From an uncultured Candidatus Saccharibacteria bacterium (GTDB lineage Bacteria > Patescibacteriota > Saccharimonadia > Saccharimonadales > Saccharimonadaceae), in the NCBI GenBank assembly GCA_947087275.1, contig CAMUBZ010000009.1, forward strand, positions 1-41,817: 41,817 nt of DNA, written 5' to 3'. Made by a program: the position numbers and the translations under genes. Shown in pieces: positions 10,454-40,575 of the stretch; position 1 is the stretch's first letter; each line of letters starts with the position of its first letter. The notes beneath the pieces are model-generated. The model saw only the letters and a list, made by a program, of their open reading frames with translations, ran no database searches and had not been told where the DNA came from.

Positions 10454-12280
10454 ATGACGCAAAATATTCGCAATATCGCAATCATTGCCCACGTCGACCA
10501 TGGCAAAACTACCCTCGTGGATGGTCTCCTCAAGCAATCGCGTACTTTTCGCGACAACCAAGCCGAGATGTCTCAAACTCTCATCATGGATTCCATGGAC
10601 CAGGAGCACGAGCGGGGAATTACCATCACCGCTAAGCAAACTTCGGTCTATTACAATGATTACAAAATCAACATTATTGATACCCCGGGCCACGCTGACT
10701 TCTCAGGTGAAGTAGAGCGCACGCTCAATATGGCGGATGGTGTCTTGCTGGTGGTGGATGCTCAAGAAGGCCCGATGCCACAGACCAAATTTGTGTTGCA
10801 AAAAGCCTTGAGCCTCAAACTCAAACCAGTAGTGATTATCAACAAAATCGATAAGCCCGCCGCCCGCATCGAAGAAGTCGGAAGCGAAATTGCCGACCTC
10901 TTCCTAGAACTTGCTAGTGACGAAAGCCAGCTCAACTATCCAATTTATTATGCAATCGCTCGTGATGGTAAAGCCGGCAAAACTACTAATCTCGACGACG
11001 ATTTGCACGTCATTTTTGAGTCGATCATCAACGATATTCCGGCACCAAAGATTGATGAAGATGCCAGTAAGGGTGCACAACTTTTGGTGGCGGCGCTCGC
11101 AGCCGATAACTACCTCGGAAAGTATGCCATTGGCAAGATCTTCCGCGGCAAACTCAAAAAAGGTGAGACCGTCACTGTCATGCATACCGATGTGGAAACT
11201 GGTGAGCTACAAAACAGCCGTGCCAAGATTGAAAATGTTTTCGTCTACAAAGGCCTTGGTCGCGAAGAGGTGTCAGAAGCCGAGGCTGGCGACATCGTGG
11301 CGGTTTCTGGTATTGCTCAGGCGAATATTGGCGACACAATTGCTACCGGCGAAACTCCCGAGGCATTGCCTACGATTGAACTCGAACCGCCCACGCTCAG
11401 TATTTATATTGGGCCAAATACCTCGCCACTCAAGGGCCAGGAAGGTGAGTTTACGACCTCGCGTCAGATTGCCGAGCGTCTGGAGCGTGAACTCGAGACC
11501 AACATTGCTCTCAAAATTGTCCCCGACGGCCTAGGCTACAAAGTTTCTGGACGCGGCGAGTTGCATCTTTCCGTTTTGATTGAGACTATGCGCCGCGAAG
11601 GCTACGAGCTGGAGACTGGTCGCCCTGAAGTTGTTTATAAAGAAAACAACGGTGTGAAACAGGAACCGGTGGAGGAACTTACGATTGAGGTTGAACCAGA
11701 GTTTGTCGGCGCGGTGAGCCAAGAACTCGGTATCCGCAAGGCCGAACTCAAGAGCCAGGAAATAACAAGCACCGGTGCTACGCGTTTTGTTTACGAGATT
11801 ACCACTGCCGCCCTGATTGGCTTGCGCAACAATTTGCTCACCGCCACCAAAGGTACGGCGATTATGTCAACCTTGCCCAATGGCTATCGCCCAGTAGAGG
11901 GGAAGTATAAGCCCGAACGTAACGGTGCCTTGATTGCTTTTGAACCTGGCACTAGCACGGCTTATGCCCTAGATGCCGCTCAGGCCCGCGGAATTCTCTT
12001 TATCCCGCCCGGAGTGCCGGTTTATCAGGGGATGATTGTCGGCCTTAGCAACAAAAAGGATGACCTTGACATCAATGTCTGTAAGGAAAAGCAGCTAACC
12101 AACATGCGCACGCACGCTAGTGATGGCGCGATTCAGTTGACTCCTTACACGCAGTATTCTTTGGAACAGTGTATTGACTTTCTTTTGGATGATGAACTGC
12201 TAGAAGTTACGCCAAAATCCCTCCGCCTCCGCAAGCGTCAACTCGACCCAGTCAAGCGCAAACGCGAAAACCGAGCCTAA
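10454..12280 (+). CDS. typA: Ribosome-associated GTPase TypA/BipA
   Basis: This is a 608-aa translational GTPase. The start at ATG 10454 gives [20 protein letters not shown], the usual TypA N-terminus. A GTG further upstream at 10412 would add 14 residues unlike the family. Visible motifs are G1 [10 protein letters not shown]2 RGITITAK, G3 DTPGH and G4 NKID, then beta-barrel, EF-G III/V-like and TypA-specific C-terminal domains ending in a basic tail. TypA binds the 70S ribosome at the EF-G site and acts in ribosome assembly and stress adaptation. Length matches the usual 600-615 aa. It has its own promoter and a leader of about 80 nt. Confidence 0.97.
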
Positions 12281-12304
12281 GCAATCTTATAACTATATTG
12301 CTTA
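12278..12304. repeat. Inverted repeat next to lectin cassette 1
   Basis: An 8-bp perfect stem TAAGCAAT/ATTGCTTA (12278-12285 and 12297-12304) surrounds an 11-nt loop. It lies 8 nt beyond the cassette's stop codon on its 3' side, the same position as the larger hairpins next to cassettes 3 and 4. It also overlaps the typA stop and could act as a weak typA terminator. Confidence 0.6.
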
Positions 12305-12312
12305 TCCCACTC

Positions 12313-12516
12313 CTACATACCTAATACAGTACTAAGGCAGCGGAGGGGGAAACCGAGGTAACGACTATTATAATCAGAAGCATTAAGTGCACTATAGAGA
12401 GCAAGAAAATATGCAGTAGTATTAGCATCACCACGCGAAGACCAATAAACACCTCCAGCAGCTGTATATCTAAGCGTACCGGGAACATTAGCGACGTATA
12501 GGTGCCCGCTGCGCAC
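12313..12516 (-). pseudogene. Lectin-like C-terminal cassette 1 (5'-truncated)
   Basis: The minus strand encodes an open frame from VRSG (GTGCGCAGCGGG at 12516-12505) to GFPLRCLSTVLGM and a TAG at 12313. The middle contains WSS and an AYFLALYSA strand. This is the C-terminal portion of a FISUMP/CLec-type domain, with no N-terminal part, signal peptide or convincing promoter upstream. The 44 bases at 12311-12354 are identical in cassettes 3 and 4. The reading frame is intact, so it looks like a stored sequence block rather than a decayed gene. It may be a silent donor or a retroelement variable region (inference). Confidence 0.7.
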
Positions 12517-13124: not shown

Positions 13125-13949
13125 ATGCTAATCGACACTCATTGCCACCTTCACGACCGCGAATGGTTTACGCCCGAGCAATCAGAACTATTTTTGCAAG
13201 AAGCGCACAATAATAACGTCCAGAAAATTATCTGTATTGGCACAAATCACCAAGATTCGCTTAACGCAAGTGACTTTGCTACTAAGCATCAAGATGTTTA
13301 TTGGACCTACGGCATCCATCCCGAGTTTGCCTCTGCCATTCAGCAGCGGGATGAGGACATTTTGCTTCTTTTTGAGAGGATCCGGAGTTACGACGAGGAA
13401 GAGCGGCGCGACCCTGCAACGGCAGGCGTCGCGAACGCGCCTCGAAAAAAGAAGACAAAATGTCCTTTGCTTGTGGCTATTGGCGAAATCGGCCTTGACT
13501 ACCATTACGACGATTATGATCGCTCCGCACAAATCCACCTTTTTGAGCAAATGCTCCAACTGGCACTCGACCTCAATCTCCCTGTATCATTGCATATCCG
13601 CGAAGCCTTTACGGACGCTTTTGCCGTACTCGACAACTTTCCCAAAACTCGTGGCGTTGTACATAGTTTTACTGGTTCCAAGCGCGAACTACGCCAAGCG
13701 CTTGATCGCGGCTTCTCGATTGGCGTGAATGGCCTTTGCACCTACACGACCAACCCTTTACCACCTCTCGCAAATATGGTATTAGAAACTGACGCTCCAT
13801 TCTTGACGCCAGTTCCTTTCCGTGGTACAATAAACAAACCAGGATATGTTAAAACTATTGCAACATATCTCGCGGAAAAATTGGGTGTGGCAGAAGCAAA
13901 AGTAGTGGAGCAAACAACTCAAAATGCGAGAAACATTTTCAAGATCTAA
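13125..13949 (+). CDS. tatD: TatD-family metal-dependent deoxyribonuclease
   Basis: This 274-aa TIM-barrel hydrolase shows the metal-ligand motifs in order: THCHLHD, GEIGLDYH, SLHIRE, VHSFTG and ETDAPFLTP. TatD enzymes act as Mg-dependent 3'-5' exonucleases on DNA/RNA and are implicated in repair and nucleic-acid turnover. Between the YGIHPEF and VAIGEIGLDY strands there is an insertion of about 35-38 residues containing DEEERRDPATAGVANAPR. This is encoded by a palindromic element that also occurs in pheT. The insertion lies in a surface loop before the catalytic Glu and keeps the frame. The gene overlaps a 47-aa small gene at its 3' end. Confidence 0.95.
   Translation: MLIDTHCHLHDREWFTPEQSELFLQEAHNNNVQKIICIGTNHQDSLNASDFATKHQDVYWTYGIHPEFASAIQQRDEDILLLFERIRSYDEEERRDPATAGVANAPRKKKTKCPLLVAIGEIGLDYHYDDYDRSAQIHLFEQMLQLALDLNLPVSLHIREAFTDAFAVLDNFPKTRGVVHSFTGSKRELRQALDRGFSIGVNGLCTYTTNPLPPLANMVLETDAPFLTPVPFRGTINKPGYVKTIATYLAEKLGVAEAKVVEQTTQNARNIFKI
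13355..13465 (+). repeat. In-frame palindromic element in tatD
   Basis: Outer arms 13355-13376 and 13441-13465 are near-perfect inverted repeats (left arm begins GGACATTTTG, right arm ends CAAAATGTCC). They flank a 72-nt GC-rich core (13374-13445) that is 71/72 identical to 39433-39504 in pheT. The core has its own hairpin (CGCGACCCTGC against GCAGGCGTCGCG). The reading frame stays open and adds about 37 residues to TatD. Confidence 0.85.
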
Positions 13950-17618: not shown

Positions 17619-17807
17619 GTGCGCAGCGGGTATGTCAACTTACCTAATACTGCTGGTACTTTGAGGAACGCTGGCATCAACGGCAACTGGTGGTCGTCGC
17701 GCGGTGATGCCGCTACCAATGCGTACAACCTCAACTTTAATGCTACTGGCGTCAACCCGTCGAACGGCCCGAATAACCGTTGGCATGGTTTCCCCCTCCG
17801 CTGCCTT
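17619..17807 (+). repeat. Lectin-like cassette 2, AAY-rich (template-like)
   Basis: The plus strand carries the same VRSG start block (17619-17630) and GFPLRCL end block (17787-17807) as the minus-strand cassettes, with WWSSRGDAATNAYNLNF between. Twelve asparagine codons (AAC/AAT) fall mostly at the positions where the other copies differ. In diversity-generating retroelements the template repeat is AAY-rich because its adenines are randomised in the variable copy. Unlike copies 1, 3 and 4 it lacks the 3' STVLGM-stop block and a flanking hairpin. That also fits a template whose end differs from the target's. A direct parent-offspring relation to cassette 3 is unlikely, since many non-adenine bases differ. 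Confidence 0.6.
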
Positions 17808-20491: not shown

Positions 20492-20617
20492 TACTATTTA
20501 TGCTATTTTTGTATTTTAGCAATAATATTTGATAGTTTTATAACTGATTGTTGAGACTTTATTTCATCATCCCACTCCTACATATACACACCTGCGGTGT
20601 GATATGGTGTCGTCTCG

Positions 20618-20653
20618 AAAGTAAAAGAACAAGTGAACTTGTTCTTTTACTTT
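20618..20653. repeat. Perfect 17-bp inverted repeat next to lectin cassette 3
   Basis: Arms 20618-20634 and 20637-20653 are perfect complements around the 2-nt loop GA. The repeat ends 9 nt from the cassette's stop codon. The same arms recur at 25720-25755 with loop TC. Together with the preceding GTCGTCTCG it forms a 50-bp dispersed repeat. Confidence 0.9.
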
Positions 20654-20662
20654 ACTCATCTC

Positions 20663-20875
20663 CTACATACCTAATACAGTACTAAGGCAGCGGAGGGGGA
20701 AACCATGGTAACGGGCACTCGGACCCCGCGACGGGATGACATCAGTACTATTAAACCATAAGTCATAGATATGGTTAGCATCAGAATAGGTTCGAGATGA
20801 CCACCAAAGGCTTTCTACACCAGCGCCACCGAAAGTGCCGGTAGTGACAAGTAAATGGAAGTACCCGCTGCGCAC
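20663..20875 (-). pseudogene. Lectin-like C-terminal cassette 3 (5'-truncated)
   Basis: The minus strand encodes VRSGYFHLL, then WWSSRTYSDAN and a final GFPLRCLSTVLGM-stop. The start block (20875-20864) and the 44-bp end block (20661-20704) equal those of cassettes 1 and 4. Nothing homologous lies upstream of VRSG and there is no signal peptide. The nearest upstream DNA is an unrelated AT-rich stretch. Compared with cassette 2, differences cluster at its AAY codons but also include silent changes, so long divergence or a different template must be assumed. Confidence 0.7.
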
Positions 20876-25668: not shown

Positions 25669-25719
25669 CACTCCCTACATAGCCACATCACTACGTTCTA
25701 TGGTATGGACGTCGTCTCG

Positions 25720-25755
25720 AAAGTAAAAGAACAAGTTCACTTGTTCTTTTACTTT
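25720..25755. repeat. Perfect 17-bp inverted repeat next to lectin cassette 4
   Basis: Arms 25720-25736 and 25739-25755 surround the 2-nt loop TC. It ends 9 nt from the cassette's stop. The sequence equals the repeat at 20618-20653, except that the loop is its reverse complement. Confidence 0.9.
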
Positions 25756-25764
25756 ACTCAATTC

Positions 25765-25983
25765 CTACATACCTAATACAGTACTAAGGCAGCGGAGGGG
25801 GAAACCATAGAAACGACTGTCTTCTGCTGAGGGCAAGTTGATATTTATTTTGACATATAGGTTATAAGCAAGGGGCTGAGATGCCCCATATGACGACCAA
25901 CCCAATATGTTTTGTGCACCATTCCAAAATACATTACTTGTTCTTCCATTAGAACCAGTCAAATCCATAGTCCCGCTGCGCAC
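25765..25983 (-). pseudogene. Lectin-like C-terminal cassette 4 (5'-truncated)
   Basis: The minus strand encodes VRSGTMDLTGSNG, then GWSSYGASQPLAYNLYV and a terminal GFPLRCLSTVLGM-stop. The start block is at 25983-25972 and the 44-bp end block at 25763-25806, as in cassettes 1 and 3. It lies directly downstream of the tRNA-Pro terminator. The middle differs strongly from all other copies and is slightly longer, while the frame is kept. No upstream domain is present, so on its own it cannot encode a displayed protein. Confidence 0.7.
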
Positions 25984-37072: not shown

Positions 37073-38020
37073 ATGTCAAATGTAGAGAAATTACGGGCGG
37101 ATCTCAAAGCCCTAAACTCAGAATACGCCAAAATCAAAACTTTACCGCCAGAAGAACGCGGCGAGTTTGGTCGCATGATGAACCAAAAAAAGCAGAAACT
37201 TTTGGTAGAAATTGAGCGTGCAGAGGCAGAAGCCGAAAGCTCCAATGTAGAAGCGCTCGATATTTCCGCACCTTCTGCCCCTAATCAACCAATCCCAGTC
37301 ATCAAGCGAGGCACCAGGCATCCGCTCATGACCGAGTTAGACCGTGTAATCCAGGTATATTCCGATATGGGCTTCGACGTAATGGAGTCGCGACAGTTAG
37401 ATGACGAATTTCATATGTTTGATAGTTTAAACTTTCCCGTAGGGCATCCGGCGCGTGATGGTTATGATACTTTCCGTACCGCTGAGGGTTTTATTCCGCC
37501 GGCACATACTTCCACAATGCAACATCGTGCGTTAAAAAAGTATAAATCTAAGCTCGAAAATGGTGGACAAATTGCCGTTGTTGTTCCTGGCCGTGTCTTT
37601 CGCAATGAAGATGTCGATGCGACGCACGAGCATACCTTTTATCAGTGTGAGGGTGTATTTGTTTCTCAGGATGCCACGATGGGACAAATGTTTGGCGTGC
37701 TAAAACACTTTTTTGAGGCTTACTATGGTCAAAAGCTCAAAATCAAGACGCAACCCGGATATTTTCCGTTTACAGAGCCATCAGCTGAACTTTTAATTGA
37801 AAAACCCGCCAGTCTAGGTGGTAAAGGCGGTGATTGGCTAGAAATGCTTGGCTGCGGCATGATCCATCCGAATGTTCTCAAAACCGCCGGTATTGACCCA
37901 GCTAAATATCACGGTTTTGCTTGGGGCGGCGGAATTGATCGGCTAGCCATGTTGAAGTATGGTCTAAACGACGTACGCTACTTCGAATCGGGTAAACTTG
38001 ACTTCTTGGAGGAATTCTAA
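37073..38020 (+). CDS. pheS: Phenylalanyl-tRNA synthetase alpha subunit
   Basis: This 315-aa protein starts at ATG 37073; the GTG at 37055 is part of the promoter. A short coiled-coil N-terminus (about 1-60) precedes the class II catalytic domain. Its motifs are NFPVGHPARD, the motif 2 segment VFRNEDVDATHEHTFYQCEG, and motif 3 GGGIDRLAMLKYG, plus LGCGMIHPNVL. The N-terminal tRNA-binding coiled coil is shorter than in E. coli PheS (327 aa) but normal for the family. It overlaps pheT by one base (TAATG), ensuring coupled synthesis of the alpha2-beta2 enzyme. Confidence 0.97.
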   Translation: MSNVEKLRADLKALNSEYAKIKTLPPEERGEFGRMMNQKKQKLLVEIERAEAEAESSNVEALDISAPSAPNQPIPVIKRGTRHPLMTELDRVIQVYSDMGFDVMESRQLDDEFHMFDSLNFPVGHPARDGYDTFRTAEGFIPPAHTSTMQHRALKKYKSKLENGGQIAVVVPGRVFRNEDVDATHEHTFYQCEGVFVSQDATMGQMFGVLKHFFEAYYGQKLKIKTQPGYFPFTEPSAELLIEKPASLGGKGGDWLEMLGCGMIHPNVLKTAGIDPAKYHGFAWGGGIDRLAMLKYGLNDVRYFESGKLDFLEEF

Positions 38021-40575
38021 TGCGCATTTCACTCAACACAATTAAATCATATGTTCAAATTCCTGAGACAGTCTCTAATCAAGAGTTGATTGAACTGATT
38101 GGCTCACGCTTGGTAGAGATCGAGGAAGTAATTGATCTTGAACCACGGTATCGCGGTTGCTATGTGGTAAAAGTGGTTAATTGTGAATCTATCCCCGATA
38201 CACATCTTAGTCTCTGCCAAATCGACGCTGGCGTACATAATAGTGAATTTAACCAACTTGAGAATGGTCTTGTTCAGGTAGTTTGTGGTGCACCAAATGT
38301 TCATGCTGGCATGCTAGCAGTCTGGATTACTCCTGGCGCCATCGTTCCTGAGACTTACGGCAACGAAAACTTCAAACTTAGCGTGCGCAAATTGCGTGGC
38401 TACGAATCCAATGGTATGCTGGCCGGCGCCGATGAACTTGGTTTTGACACTGAGCATAAGGCCATTGCGGAGATTGACCCTAAATCTGCCCAGCCGGGCG
38501 ATGCGTTGAGCGACGTCTTCGACCTCAATGATTTGATTTTGGATGTTGAGAACAAATCTTTGACCCACCGTCCAGACTGCTTTGGTTTGATTGGTTTTGC
38601 ACGCGAAGTTGCTGGAATTTTGGGGATTCGGTTCCAAGAACCAGAAGTTTTTGCACATTTGCAAGATGCTAAATTGGCTAGTAGCAAGCAAGTTGAGCTA
38701 GAGGTAAAAATCGCCGACGCTGAACTTTGTCCACGCTATTCTTGTGCTGTATTCGACTTACCAAAGCATGAGCCAAGCAAATATCTTACTGCGACCGCTG
38801 TCTTCTTAGCCAAGGCTGGTATGCGTTCCATTGACCCAATGGTAGATTTGACTAATGTTTTGATGTTAGAAACTGGTCAACCATTGCACGCCTTTGACTA
38901 TGACAAGCTCATAAGTGTTGGTGGTAGCAAGACTCCCAAGATTATTGTCCGTGCCGCCGAAGATGGGGAACCATTGCAGTTGCTTGATGGTAAGACAATT
39001 ACTTGCACGCCCGATGATATTATGATTACTTCTAATAATATCCCGGTTGCTTTGGCTGGGGCCATGGGCGGCAAAAATACCGACATTGACGCGAGCACTA
39101 CTCGTGTTGTGCTCGAAAGTGCCACATTTTCACTTTATCGTTTACGTAAAACCCAAATGGCGCACGGTATTTTCTCTGAGGCGATTACGCGTTTCACCAA
39201 AGGGCAACCCGCCGCAATCACTTTGCCGGTTTTGGCCGAGGCTGTCCGGCGGTTGGGGGTTGAGCCTTTAGCTATTGCCGACGAATACCCAGCCAAATCC
39301 CCAGAAACTGTTGTAAAAATTACAACAGAACAGGCAAACAATCTGCTCAGCACAACATATGATACGGACACCGTTGTAGATACATTGGAGAATGTTGGCT
39401 TTGGCGTAGAGGCGCTAGCAACGGCTTCATCCGAGAGGATCCGGAGTTGCGACGAGGAAGAGCGGCGCGACCCTGCAACGGCAGGCGTCGCGAACGCGCC
39501 TCGAGTAGGAAGCCGTGCTAACGCTACCATGCTGAAGGTAACTTCTCCCGTCTGGCGTACCGACATCCACATCGCCGAAGACGTCATCGAAGAAGTAGGC
39601 CGACTGCTCGGCTACGACAATATCCCACTTGCCTTGCCAACCAAGCCATTCTTGGAGCCAGAAATCGACGCTATGGTGAGGCTCAAGCAAGAATTGCGCG
39701 AGATTTTGTCTGGACGCCTGCAGATGAATGAACTCTTGACCTACTCATTCGTGCACCGTGATTTGATTACCAAAGTCGGCAAAGACCCCGAAGACTGTTA
39801 CCAGATTGTTAACTCCATTTCTCCAGACCTGCAATGCTTCCGCTCCGAAATTGCTCCGAGCCTACTCGACAAAGTTCGTGAAAATCTTAAAGTTGGTCAC
39901 CAAGGCTTTACCTTGTATGAGATGAATCAGGTCGCCCGCAAGGGTAGCGGCTTGACTGACGAGGGTACGCCAGTCACCAAAACTCATCTTGGCGTTGTTG
40001 CTACTAATGATTTCTATACCCTCAAAGCACAAATTTTGGCTATGTTCGCCGAACTCAAGGTGCCCGTAGAATATGCGTTACTTTCGTCTGAAACCGCCAG
40101 CCATCATCCGTATCTTGAACCCAAGCGTTCGGCAGAACTCTTCTTGGCCGGCCAGAACATTGGTGCTTTTGGTGAAGTTAATGCAAGCGTTTTGCGTCAA
40201 TTTAAACTCGACCAAGTAAGTTCTGCTGCTGAGATTAATCTCGATAAAATCGCTGTTGCTCCGCGTGTATTACAAGCCCAAGTGCAACTTTCCAAATTCC
40301 CATCCGTTGAACGCGATCTAACACTCAAAGTAGCTGGCGACGCGCCATTTGGCCGCATTGCTACCGCTATCGACGAGAGTTTAAGCCAGCAAGAGTTATA
40401 TTATAACGTAACGCCAATTTCCATCTACCAGGCACCGACCGACCAATCCACCAAGAATCTATCCTTCCATCTCAAGTTCTCTAGCCCTCACCAGACTTTG
40501 AATGCGACAGAAATCTCTGCTATAATGGATAAAATCGCCAAGGATGTTTCCGCAGTAGGCGCAACGATTGTATAA
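38020..40575 (+). CDS. pheT: Phenylalanyl-tRNA synthetase beta subunit
   Basis: This 851-aa protein contains the N-terminal OB-fold/EMAP-like tRNA-binding domain (about 40-150, VVCGAPNVHAGMLAVW), the B3/4 editing domain, B5 domains, and the C-terminal FDX-ACB domain (KFPSVERDLTLKV). A foreign loop of about 38 residues (about 465-503, with DEEERRDPATAGVANAPR) interrupts the B5 domain between NVGFGVEA and LKVTSPVWRTDI. It is encoded by the palindromic element also seen in tatD. The rest aligns in order with normal PheT, so the protein is probably functional. A promoter for the next gene lies in its last codons. Confidence 0.96.
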   Translation: MRISLNTIKSYVQIPETVSNQELIELIGSRLVEIEEVIDLEPRYRGCYVVKVVNCESIPDTHLSLCQIDAGVHNSEFNQLENGLVQVVCGAPNVHAGMLAVWITPGAIVPETYGNENFKLSVRKLRGYESNGMLAGADELGFDTEHKAIAEIDPKSAQPGDALSDVFDLNDLILDVENKSLTHRPDCFGLIGFAREVAGILGIRFQEPEVFAHLQDAKLASSKQVELEVKIADAELCPRYSCAVFDLPKHEPSKYLTATAVFLAKAGMRSIDPMVDLTNVLMLETGQPLHAFDYDKLISVGGSKTPKIIVRAAEDGEPLQLLDGKTITCTPDDIMITSNNIPVALAGAMGGKNTDIDASTTRVVLESATFSLYRLRKTQMAHGIFSEAITRFTKGQPAAITLPVLAEAVRRLGVEPLAIADEYPAKSPETVVKITTEQANNLLSTTYDTDTVVDTLENVGFGVEALATASSERIRSCDEEERRDPATAGVANAPRVGSRANATMLKVTSPVWRTDIHIAEDVIEEVGRLLGYDNIPLALPTKPFLEPEIDAMVRLKQELREILSGRLQMNELLTYSFVHRDLITKVGKDPEDCYQIVNSISPDLQCFRSEIAPSLLDKVRENLKVGHQGFTLYEMNQVARKGSGLTDEGTPVTKTHLGVVATNDFYTLKAQILAMFAELKVPVEYALLSSETASHHPYLEPKRSAELFLAGQNIGAFGEVNASVLRQFKLDQVSSAAEINLDKIAVAPRVLQAQVQLSKFPSVERDLTLKVAGDAPFGRIATAIDESLSQQELYYNVTPISIYQAPTDQSTKNLSFHLKFSSPHQTLNATEISAIMDKIAKDVSAVGATIV
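39412..39524 (+). repeat. In-frame palindromic element in pheT
   Basis: Arms 39412-39435 and 39500-39524 are inverted repeats with a few mismatches (shared blocks TAGC, CGGCTTC). Between them the 72-nt core 39433-39504 equals that in tatD (13374-13445) at 71 of 72 positions. The single difference changes a Tyr codon to Cys. The arms are unrelated to those in tatD. Confidence 0.88.
40498..40526 (+). promoter_or_regulatory. Internal promoter for the FKBP gene
   Basis: TTGAAT (40498-40503), a 17-nt spacer and TATAAT (40521-40526) lie inside the end of pheT. The leader would be about 55 nt. Confidence 0.5.

Follow-up and report, generated by a model that had tools for sequence, protein, structure and literature searches.

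The question raised by this locus is how two unrelated genes, tatD and pheT, came to carry within their reading frames an almost identical stretch of 72 nt, and what kind of element this stretch represents. The window, that is the whole stretch of DNA analysed here (41,817 nt), is contig 9 of the genome of an uncultured Candidatus Saccharibacteria bacterium (829 kb, 15 contigs), hereafter its own genome. In-frame palindromic repeats are known from Rickettsia and Wolbachia, the Rickettsia palindromic elements (RPEs) reportedly from the work of Ogata in 2000 and 2002, and a preliminary description of this DNA had invoked the same type of element, reading the stretch as a palindromic core, mobile or copied, inserted in two essential genes and tolerated as protein. 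Comparison within the window sequence confirmed the identity of 71 of the 72 bases; both copies lie at codon offset 0 of their open reading frame (ORF) and are therefore read in the same frame (Table 1). A chance origin of this identity is excluded by the E-value of the match of the second copy to the 72-nt sequence (~1e-31), together with the further copies found in the genome. PheT is essential as had been claimed, whereas TatD is not generally so.

Table 1. Positions in the window of the two copies of the repeat, their parts and their host genes
Feature	Position	Strand	Basis
tatD host gene, TatD DNase, 274 aa, holds copy 1 in frame	13125..13949	+	ORF; Pfam TatD_DNase residues 3-273, 7.6e-61
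Copy 1 5' arm, site-specific outer stem; doubles as host codons DILLLF	13353..13373	+	Fold of 13329-13490; partner 13446-13468
Copy 1 conserved head, 72 nt, in-frame reading ERIRSYDEEERRDPATAGVANAPR	13374..13445	+	71/72 vs copy 2; model R1 90.3 bits, E 3.5e-28
Copy 1 head helix P1, 5' side GAGG, partner CCTC 13440-13443, GA/GA before and after	13376..13379	+	Covarying helix, alignments A1 and A2
Copy 1 P2 arm: TCC..GGA, internal loop GGA/GA, TACG loop capping hairpin	13381..13399	+	Covarying helix
Copy 1 P3 long hairpin, conserved bulged C, loop AACG	13403..13438	+	Covarying helix, double changes in 13/15 pairs
Copy 1 3' arm, outer stem	13446..13468	+	Fold
pheT host gene, PheRS beta chain, 851 aa, holds copy 2 in frame	38020..40575	+	ORF; Pfam B3_4, B5, tRNA_synthFbeta, FDX-ACB
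Copy 2 5' arm, site-specific outer stem	39403..39432	+	Fold
Copy 2 conserved head, 72 nt, frame of copy 1	39433..39504	+	71/72 vs copy 1; model R1 87.3 bits, E 4.1e-27
Copy 2 3' arm, outer stem	39505..39528	+	Fold
Peptide stretch DPATAGVANAPR encoded within insert	PheT or TatD		

Other repeats are present in the window. A second dispersed repeat, with core CCTACATACCTAATACAGTACTAAGGCAGCGGAGGGGGAAACC, occurs at 12259-12363, 20609-20713 and 25711-25815 and inverted at 17736-17807, with many more copies in the genome and in its nearest relative in the sample (G130); two of the window copies hold a 36-nt palindrome (AAAGTAAAAGAACAAGT..ACTTGTTCTTTTACTTT). Five short repeats (CATTGTAGCACA...) at 2297, 15806, 20462, 24660 and 36758 have a reverse complement, TGTGCTACAATG, resembling an extended -10 promoter box.

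The repeat shared by tatD and pheT is real but is not the simple palindrome initially described, nor is it limited to 72 nt. Its conserved part, the head (~72-75 nt), folds as a three-way junction. A first structure alignment, made on 43 diverse copies without regard to coding, gave the order of its parts as an outer stem, a GA/GA step, a 4-bp P1, P2 and P3, the last being long and containing a bulged C. P2 is composed of UCC/GGA, an internal loop and a short hairpin, commonly NACG-looped, UCC/GGA being replaced by UGC/GCA or UAC/GUA in subfamilies. Over 107 copies, 35 of the 37 pairs of the junction display double changes, pairing is found in 91% of the cells of the alignment, and the covariation score is 0.71, where shuffles give 0.18 (0/500) and slid controls no more than 0.12. 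The structure served to fit this alignment; in the first one, made with MAFFT, the score is 0.51 vs 0.18. None of the nine loci searched against Rfam gave a match on the element at E<=1, and no known structured RNA family was recognised.

Beyond the head, the flanks of each copy are complementary to one another, forming an outer stem of ~25-30 bp, and wholly different from those of the other copies. The duplex energy averages -34.4 kcal/mol for the two arms of a same copy and -12.9 for arms taken from different copies, and among seven copies of its own genome the arms are on average 39% identical (random 36%), the heads 79%. As the arms are unrelated between copies and the heads alike, the stem is a property of the site, the head one of the family. 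The head is not specially designed to be stop-free in all frames: on average 4.26 of its six frames are open, no better than in dinucleotide shuffles (4.48), and this openness is explained by a GC content of 72%.

The search of the core against the whole genome, called for by the preliminary description, uncovered further copies: seven by DNA search (BLAST), located in tatD, pheT, argS, der, gpmI and two intergenic regions, and 26 with the covariance model R1 (E<=0.05). The five genic copies of the BLAST set have a common frame, reading ...RRDPATAGVANAP. Intergenic copies adjoin a large ORF with ricin-type beta-trefoil lectin repeats (L258, 1-1803). The same model retrieved 26-27 copies in G130. 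In an order-wide sample, the repeat is present in all 27 members of the genus and, within the family, in a few representatives of two further genera, and is not found in the ~130 other genera. In a sister genus (g8), two heads in opposite orientation lie within ~250 nt of each other at two loci (L289, 1485-1741; L293, 1550-1795), a paired arrangement reminiscent of BIMEs. A degenerate pattern of the core matched at least 113 stretches in genome contigs; among the matches listed, 80 records were considered; all except two are named Candidatus Saccharibacteria and come from samples of rumen and gut, and the remaining two are actinobacteria that look like chance matches. The pattern matched none of 2.9 million viral contigs, and a viral vector was rejected on this ground. 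With a broader model, a scan of the phylum retrieved sparse, scattered copies in other families, four of them in a single genome (G592), which resemble the same junction on long stems and are mostly intergenic, some being terminator-like; weak single matches elsewhere in the phylum may be due to chance. These genomes are mostly metagenome assemblies, the pattern recurring over many independent studies; the copies found by the pattern favour one head subfamily, and related copies are not independent.

The existence of orthologues without the repeat identifies it as an insertion. Compared with the G130 orthologues, argS and gpmI are lengthened by their copies, by 90 nt and ~129 nt respectively; empty sites were also found for der (G057/G042) and pheT (G042). 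The two loops had been supposed to be normally absent from both protein families, and this is confirmed by alignments to solved structures, which skip residues 75-110 of the window TatD (the solved chain having ~9 residues there) and residues 466-493 of PheT (0 residues in the solved chain). The preliminary description would have been refuted if the insert were present in TatD and PheT of all distant bacteria or if no further copies existed, and neither is the case. The alignment with insert-free relatives that it recommended yielded the empty sites of pheT, argS, der and gpmI but not the base-exact ends of the inserts, the full/empty pairs being too diverged, so that no target-site duplication could be defined.

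Several insertions are shared across species. The tatD and pheT copies are common to its own genome and to G130, whose TatD is 89% identical to that of the window, and the sites in tatD, der, lepA, mnmA and trmD are each found in more than one species. The tatD site constitutes a hotspot, a hairpin element being present in nearly all the best-matching TatDs of the genus, in either orientation and in several frames. At this hotspot, four tatD loci of other members of the genus (L055, L066, L068 and L072) harbour an unrelated in-frame hairpin family (ACTTGAATTTTT..GCACGTC / ACGTGTTAAAAATTCAA).

Insertion into genes is the prevailing situation among 127 copies collected with a pattern blind to coding: 92 lie inside long ORFs belonging to 42 host families, 53 in sense and 39 in antisense, and all six frames are used (forward 20/18/15, reverse 27/9/3). 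Hosts named by Pfam include TatD, PheT, ArgS, Der, LepA, TsaD, RarA, MnmA, LeuS, PolA, Obg, TrmD, QueA, UvrC, Tgt, AlaS, DnaX, GatA, UvrD and TruB, among others, and a single Pfam domain match runs across the insert in TatD, Tgt and GatA. When the other 35 copies were checked by homology, one likely broken gene emerged; at this locus (L029, 369-440) the two halves of the host match one protein but do not share one open frame, which could reflect an insertion that disrupted the gene, a frameshift or an error of assembly. As inferred from the open frames, the genic copies, many of them in essential genes, apparently undergo translation into additional loops of the protein. In an AlphaFold2 model of the window TatD, built on a shallow six-row alignment and without protein data, the barrel is confident and residues 89-113 lie in a low-confidence loop with a pLDDT below 50. 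The notion of a mobile or copied element tolerated as protein thus gains support from the 26 copies, the sites filled or empty depending on the species, the proportion of copies in open frames and the Pfam domains running through the insert.

An insert closed by a long hairpin, with host motifs intact on either side, could also be a segment removed before or during protein synthesis, either as a small intron or by a bypass comparable to the byp elements of Magnusiomyces mitochondria. This explanation is hardly credible: the genic copies keep the frame and are free of stops, the one likely exception being found among the 35 copies that were not classed as in-frame, and they occur in both orientations, when a signal for self-splicing or bypass would function in a single orientation.

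The strong covariation and stable fold would equally suit an RNA element acting in cis within the host mRNAs, a regulatory or processing hairpin selected in the transcript. The orientation of the copies and the nature of the mispairs in their arms speak against it. Counted with a symmetric alignment on the element strand, G·T outnumbers A·C in sense (45:21), antisense (41:14) and non-genic copies (33:12), with a bootstrap over host families of 0.61-0.78, whereas no G·T bias appears when the counts are made in the mRNA sense (59:62). Even in copies inserted antisense, it is on the element strand that G·T predominates, which indicates that the fold is favoured on one strand, of fixed polarity, regardless of host transcription. 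An RNA function in the host mRNA was rejected on the absence of GU bias in the mRNA sense, and the antisense copies (39 against 53 in sense), with their GU excess on the element strand, refute a cis-acting RNA as a general account; moreover, the hosts have no regulon in common and Rfam offers no match, making this explanation very improbable. From the bias we infer a single-stranded intermediate, either ssDNA or RNA.

The activity that would handle such an intermediate was not identified. No Y1/RAYT transposase (Y1_Tnp, PF01797) was detected in its own genome nor in 39 of 40 genomes of the genus, and no reverse transcriptase was found in its own genome; neither enzyme could accordingly be retained there as the mover. 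The only Y1 matches in the 40 genomes are fragments (L310, L311) in G024, an assembly with 7% contamination. The genes surrounding close copies are ordinary (LytR, YidC-like 60KD_IMP, acyltransferase, DnaA), and an autonomous version bracketed by neighbouring copies was rejected for this reason.

Comparison of orthologous sites uncovered a different behaviour of heads and stems. Between sister species, tatD shows a head of 77 nt that is inverted while its arms are conserved (L062, L065 and L069 vs L064 and L067), and head inversion was also observed in rarA, lepA and leuS, at lower arm identity. The likeness of the arms exceeds that of the heads in obg (83% vs 71%), and within one same stretch of trmD and of der, the head subfamily found in G000 differs from that of G130. 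Heads are more similar between different sites of one genome (0.81) than in the same host gene across genomes (0.74), and in one genome three heads at unrelated sites are 99-100% identical. Inverted or differing heads on conserved arms, together with this likeness within genomes, suggest that heads turn over on more lasting stems. As far as can be judged from sequence comparison, this turnover seems to proceed by re-insertion or by conversion, which the data do not separate.

The same observations can be read without any present transposition, the hairpins being ancient and immobile insertions at tolerant loops, whose heads are alike only through gene conversion and whose stems are maintained by quasi-palindrome correction. 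The sites common to several species, the greater likeness of heads within than between genomes, the arms that remain paired and are conserved among orthologues, and the paired remnant kept at the empty argS site of G130 would all fit with it. It leaves poorly explained the argS and gpmI copies, each found in one species and missing from a close one, and the near-identical heads at unrelated sites, and we regard it as unlikely. Small hairpins at some empty sites, such as the remnant of argS in G130, nevertheless make the loss of a head hard to tell from a site that never received one. Another head-less site of G130 (L286), opposite G000 C10:34137, displays instead a hairpin that is small, perfect and in frame (GAACTTGTT..AACAAGTTC) and may be a scar or a different element.

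These two small hairpins, and the terminator-like nature of some intergenic copies of the phylum, could also indicate that the head enters only the loops of existing hairpins, terminators or remnants, a variant of the mobile reading which does not exclude it. The folding of most empty orthologous sites is not unusual, however, and non-genic copies show no clear enrichment of terminator-like T-runs at the foot of their stems (0.26 vs 0.22). A pre-existing hairpin target was therefore rejected as a general rule, and the variant as a whole appears quite improbable.

Taken together, the observed copy number, insertion, structure, frame preservation, inversion or replacement of heads between conserved arms and element-strand mispair bias probably reflect a dispersed, non-autonomous and RPE-like family of mobile hairpins, tolerated in frame in a Saccharibacteria genus from gut and rumen, with a new architecture and a new host. 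The part that spreads, flips and is replaced would be the head with a few bp of stem, the remaining stem belonging to the site. By inference, an unidentified activity would act in trans on the head, mobilising or converting it in the form of a folded single strand with fixed polarity, either ssDNA or RNA. Genic insertions would survive only if they are divisible by three in total length and leave the host frame open, an openness that the GC-rich head would make likely, and the survivors would be translated as unstructured surface loops. Since the inserts measure ~90-130 nt while the stems extend further into host sequence, the arms probably lengthen later into host codons, putatively through quasi-palindrome (template-switch) correction. 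Transposition has never been directly seen, and the homogenisation of heads could correspond to gene conversion among old copies. More tentatively, and this remains no more than a possibility, the family could constitute a head-exchange system, in which a folded, single-stranded head is moved, inverted and replaced between lasting site-specific stems in housekeeping genes; loops of core proteins would thereby be reshuffled from a genome-wide pool by an enzyme that recognises structures, namely the folded head and the stems of the hairpins, and not a DNA sequence.

Among known systems, the closest are the RPEs and the Wolbachia palindromic elements, hairpin repeats of ~100-150 bp found in intergenic regions and in frame in unrelated housekeeping genes, where they are tolerated as surface loops, at sites often common to orthologues (PMC3767692, PMC2229807, PMC10969869). 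The present repeat is likewise a dispersed hairpin of this size class (26 copies, 72-nt head plus stem), both intergenic and in frame in unrelated genes that it does not destroy (92 of 127 copies, 42 host families), and PheT and QueA are hosts in both cases. The parallel drawn with Rickettsia was thus apt for the behaviour of the repeat but not for its construction: RPEs have family-wide terminal repeats and encode a conserved peptide, whereas in the present repeat each site has arms of its own, the six frames are all used, and the conserved part is a three-way-junction head that is inverted and exchanged, in another host. As both the terminal repeats and the conserved peptide are missing, the repeat works like an RPE without membership of that family being demonstrated.

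With REP/BIME sequences and their RAYTs it shares the condition of a small palindromic non-autonomous repeat, probably recognised as a folded single strand of fixed polarity, as inferred from the GU bias; it differs by the lack of Y1 transposase mentioned above. REPs are 20-40 bp long and mostly extragenic. Bacterial MITEs (Correia/NEMIS, ERIC, RUP, BOX) are also small, dispersed, structured, non-autonomous and sometimes in frame, but have conserved terminal inverted repeats, while the termini of the present repeat are unrelated between copies. The coding palindromes of Nematomorpha mitochondria, from which the idea of template switching for the upkeep of arms is taken, are long inverted repeats in functional genes with arms kept complementary, possibly by template switching (PMC6649704); they are perfect repeats without a shared core, in contrast to a head dispersed over many sites. 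The byp elements of Magnusiomyces capitatus mitochondria also are hairpins interrupting protein-coding genes, transcribed and then skipped by ribosomes (PMC6649704), whereas the Saccharibacteria inserts keep frame and openness. The preliminary description knew of no such repeat in Saccharibacteria, and we found no description of an in-frame hairpin repeat for this group in the open literature, which is weak evidence given that most subscription papers were outside the search.

An independent and heavier invasion in reduced, host-dependent Saccharibacteria suggests that the genomes of reductive symbionts are prone to such repeats, and more than 100 species are thereby offered for testing how proteins absorb random loops. 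The conserved head, the private stem, the inversion of heads and the element-strand bias provide handles on movement, which is an open question for RPEs. For annotators and structural biologists, such loops in aminoacyl-tRNA synthetases, GTPases and tRNA-modifying enzymes of these organisms derive from a repeat.
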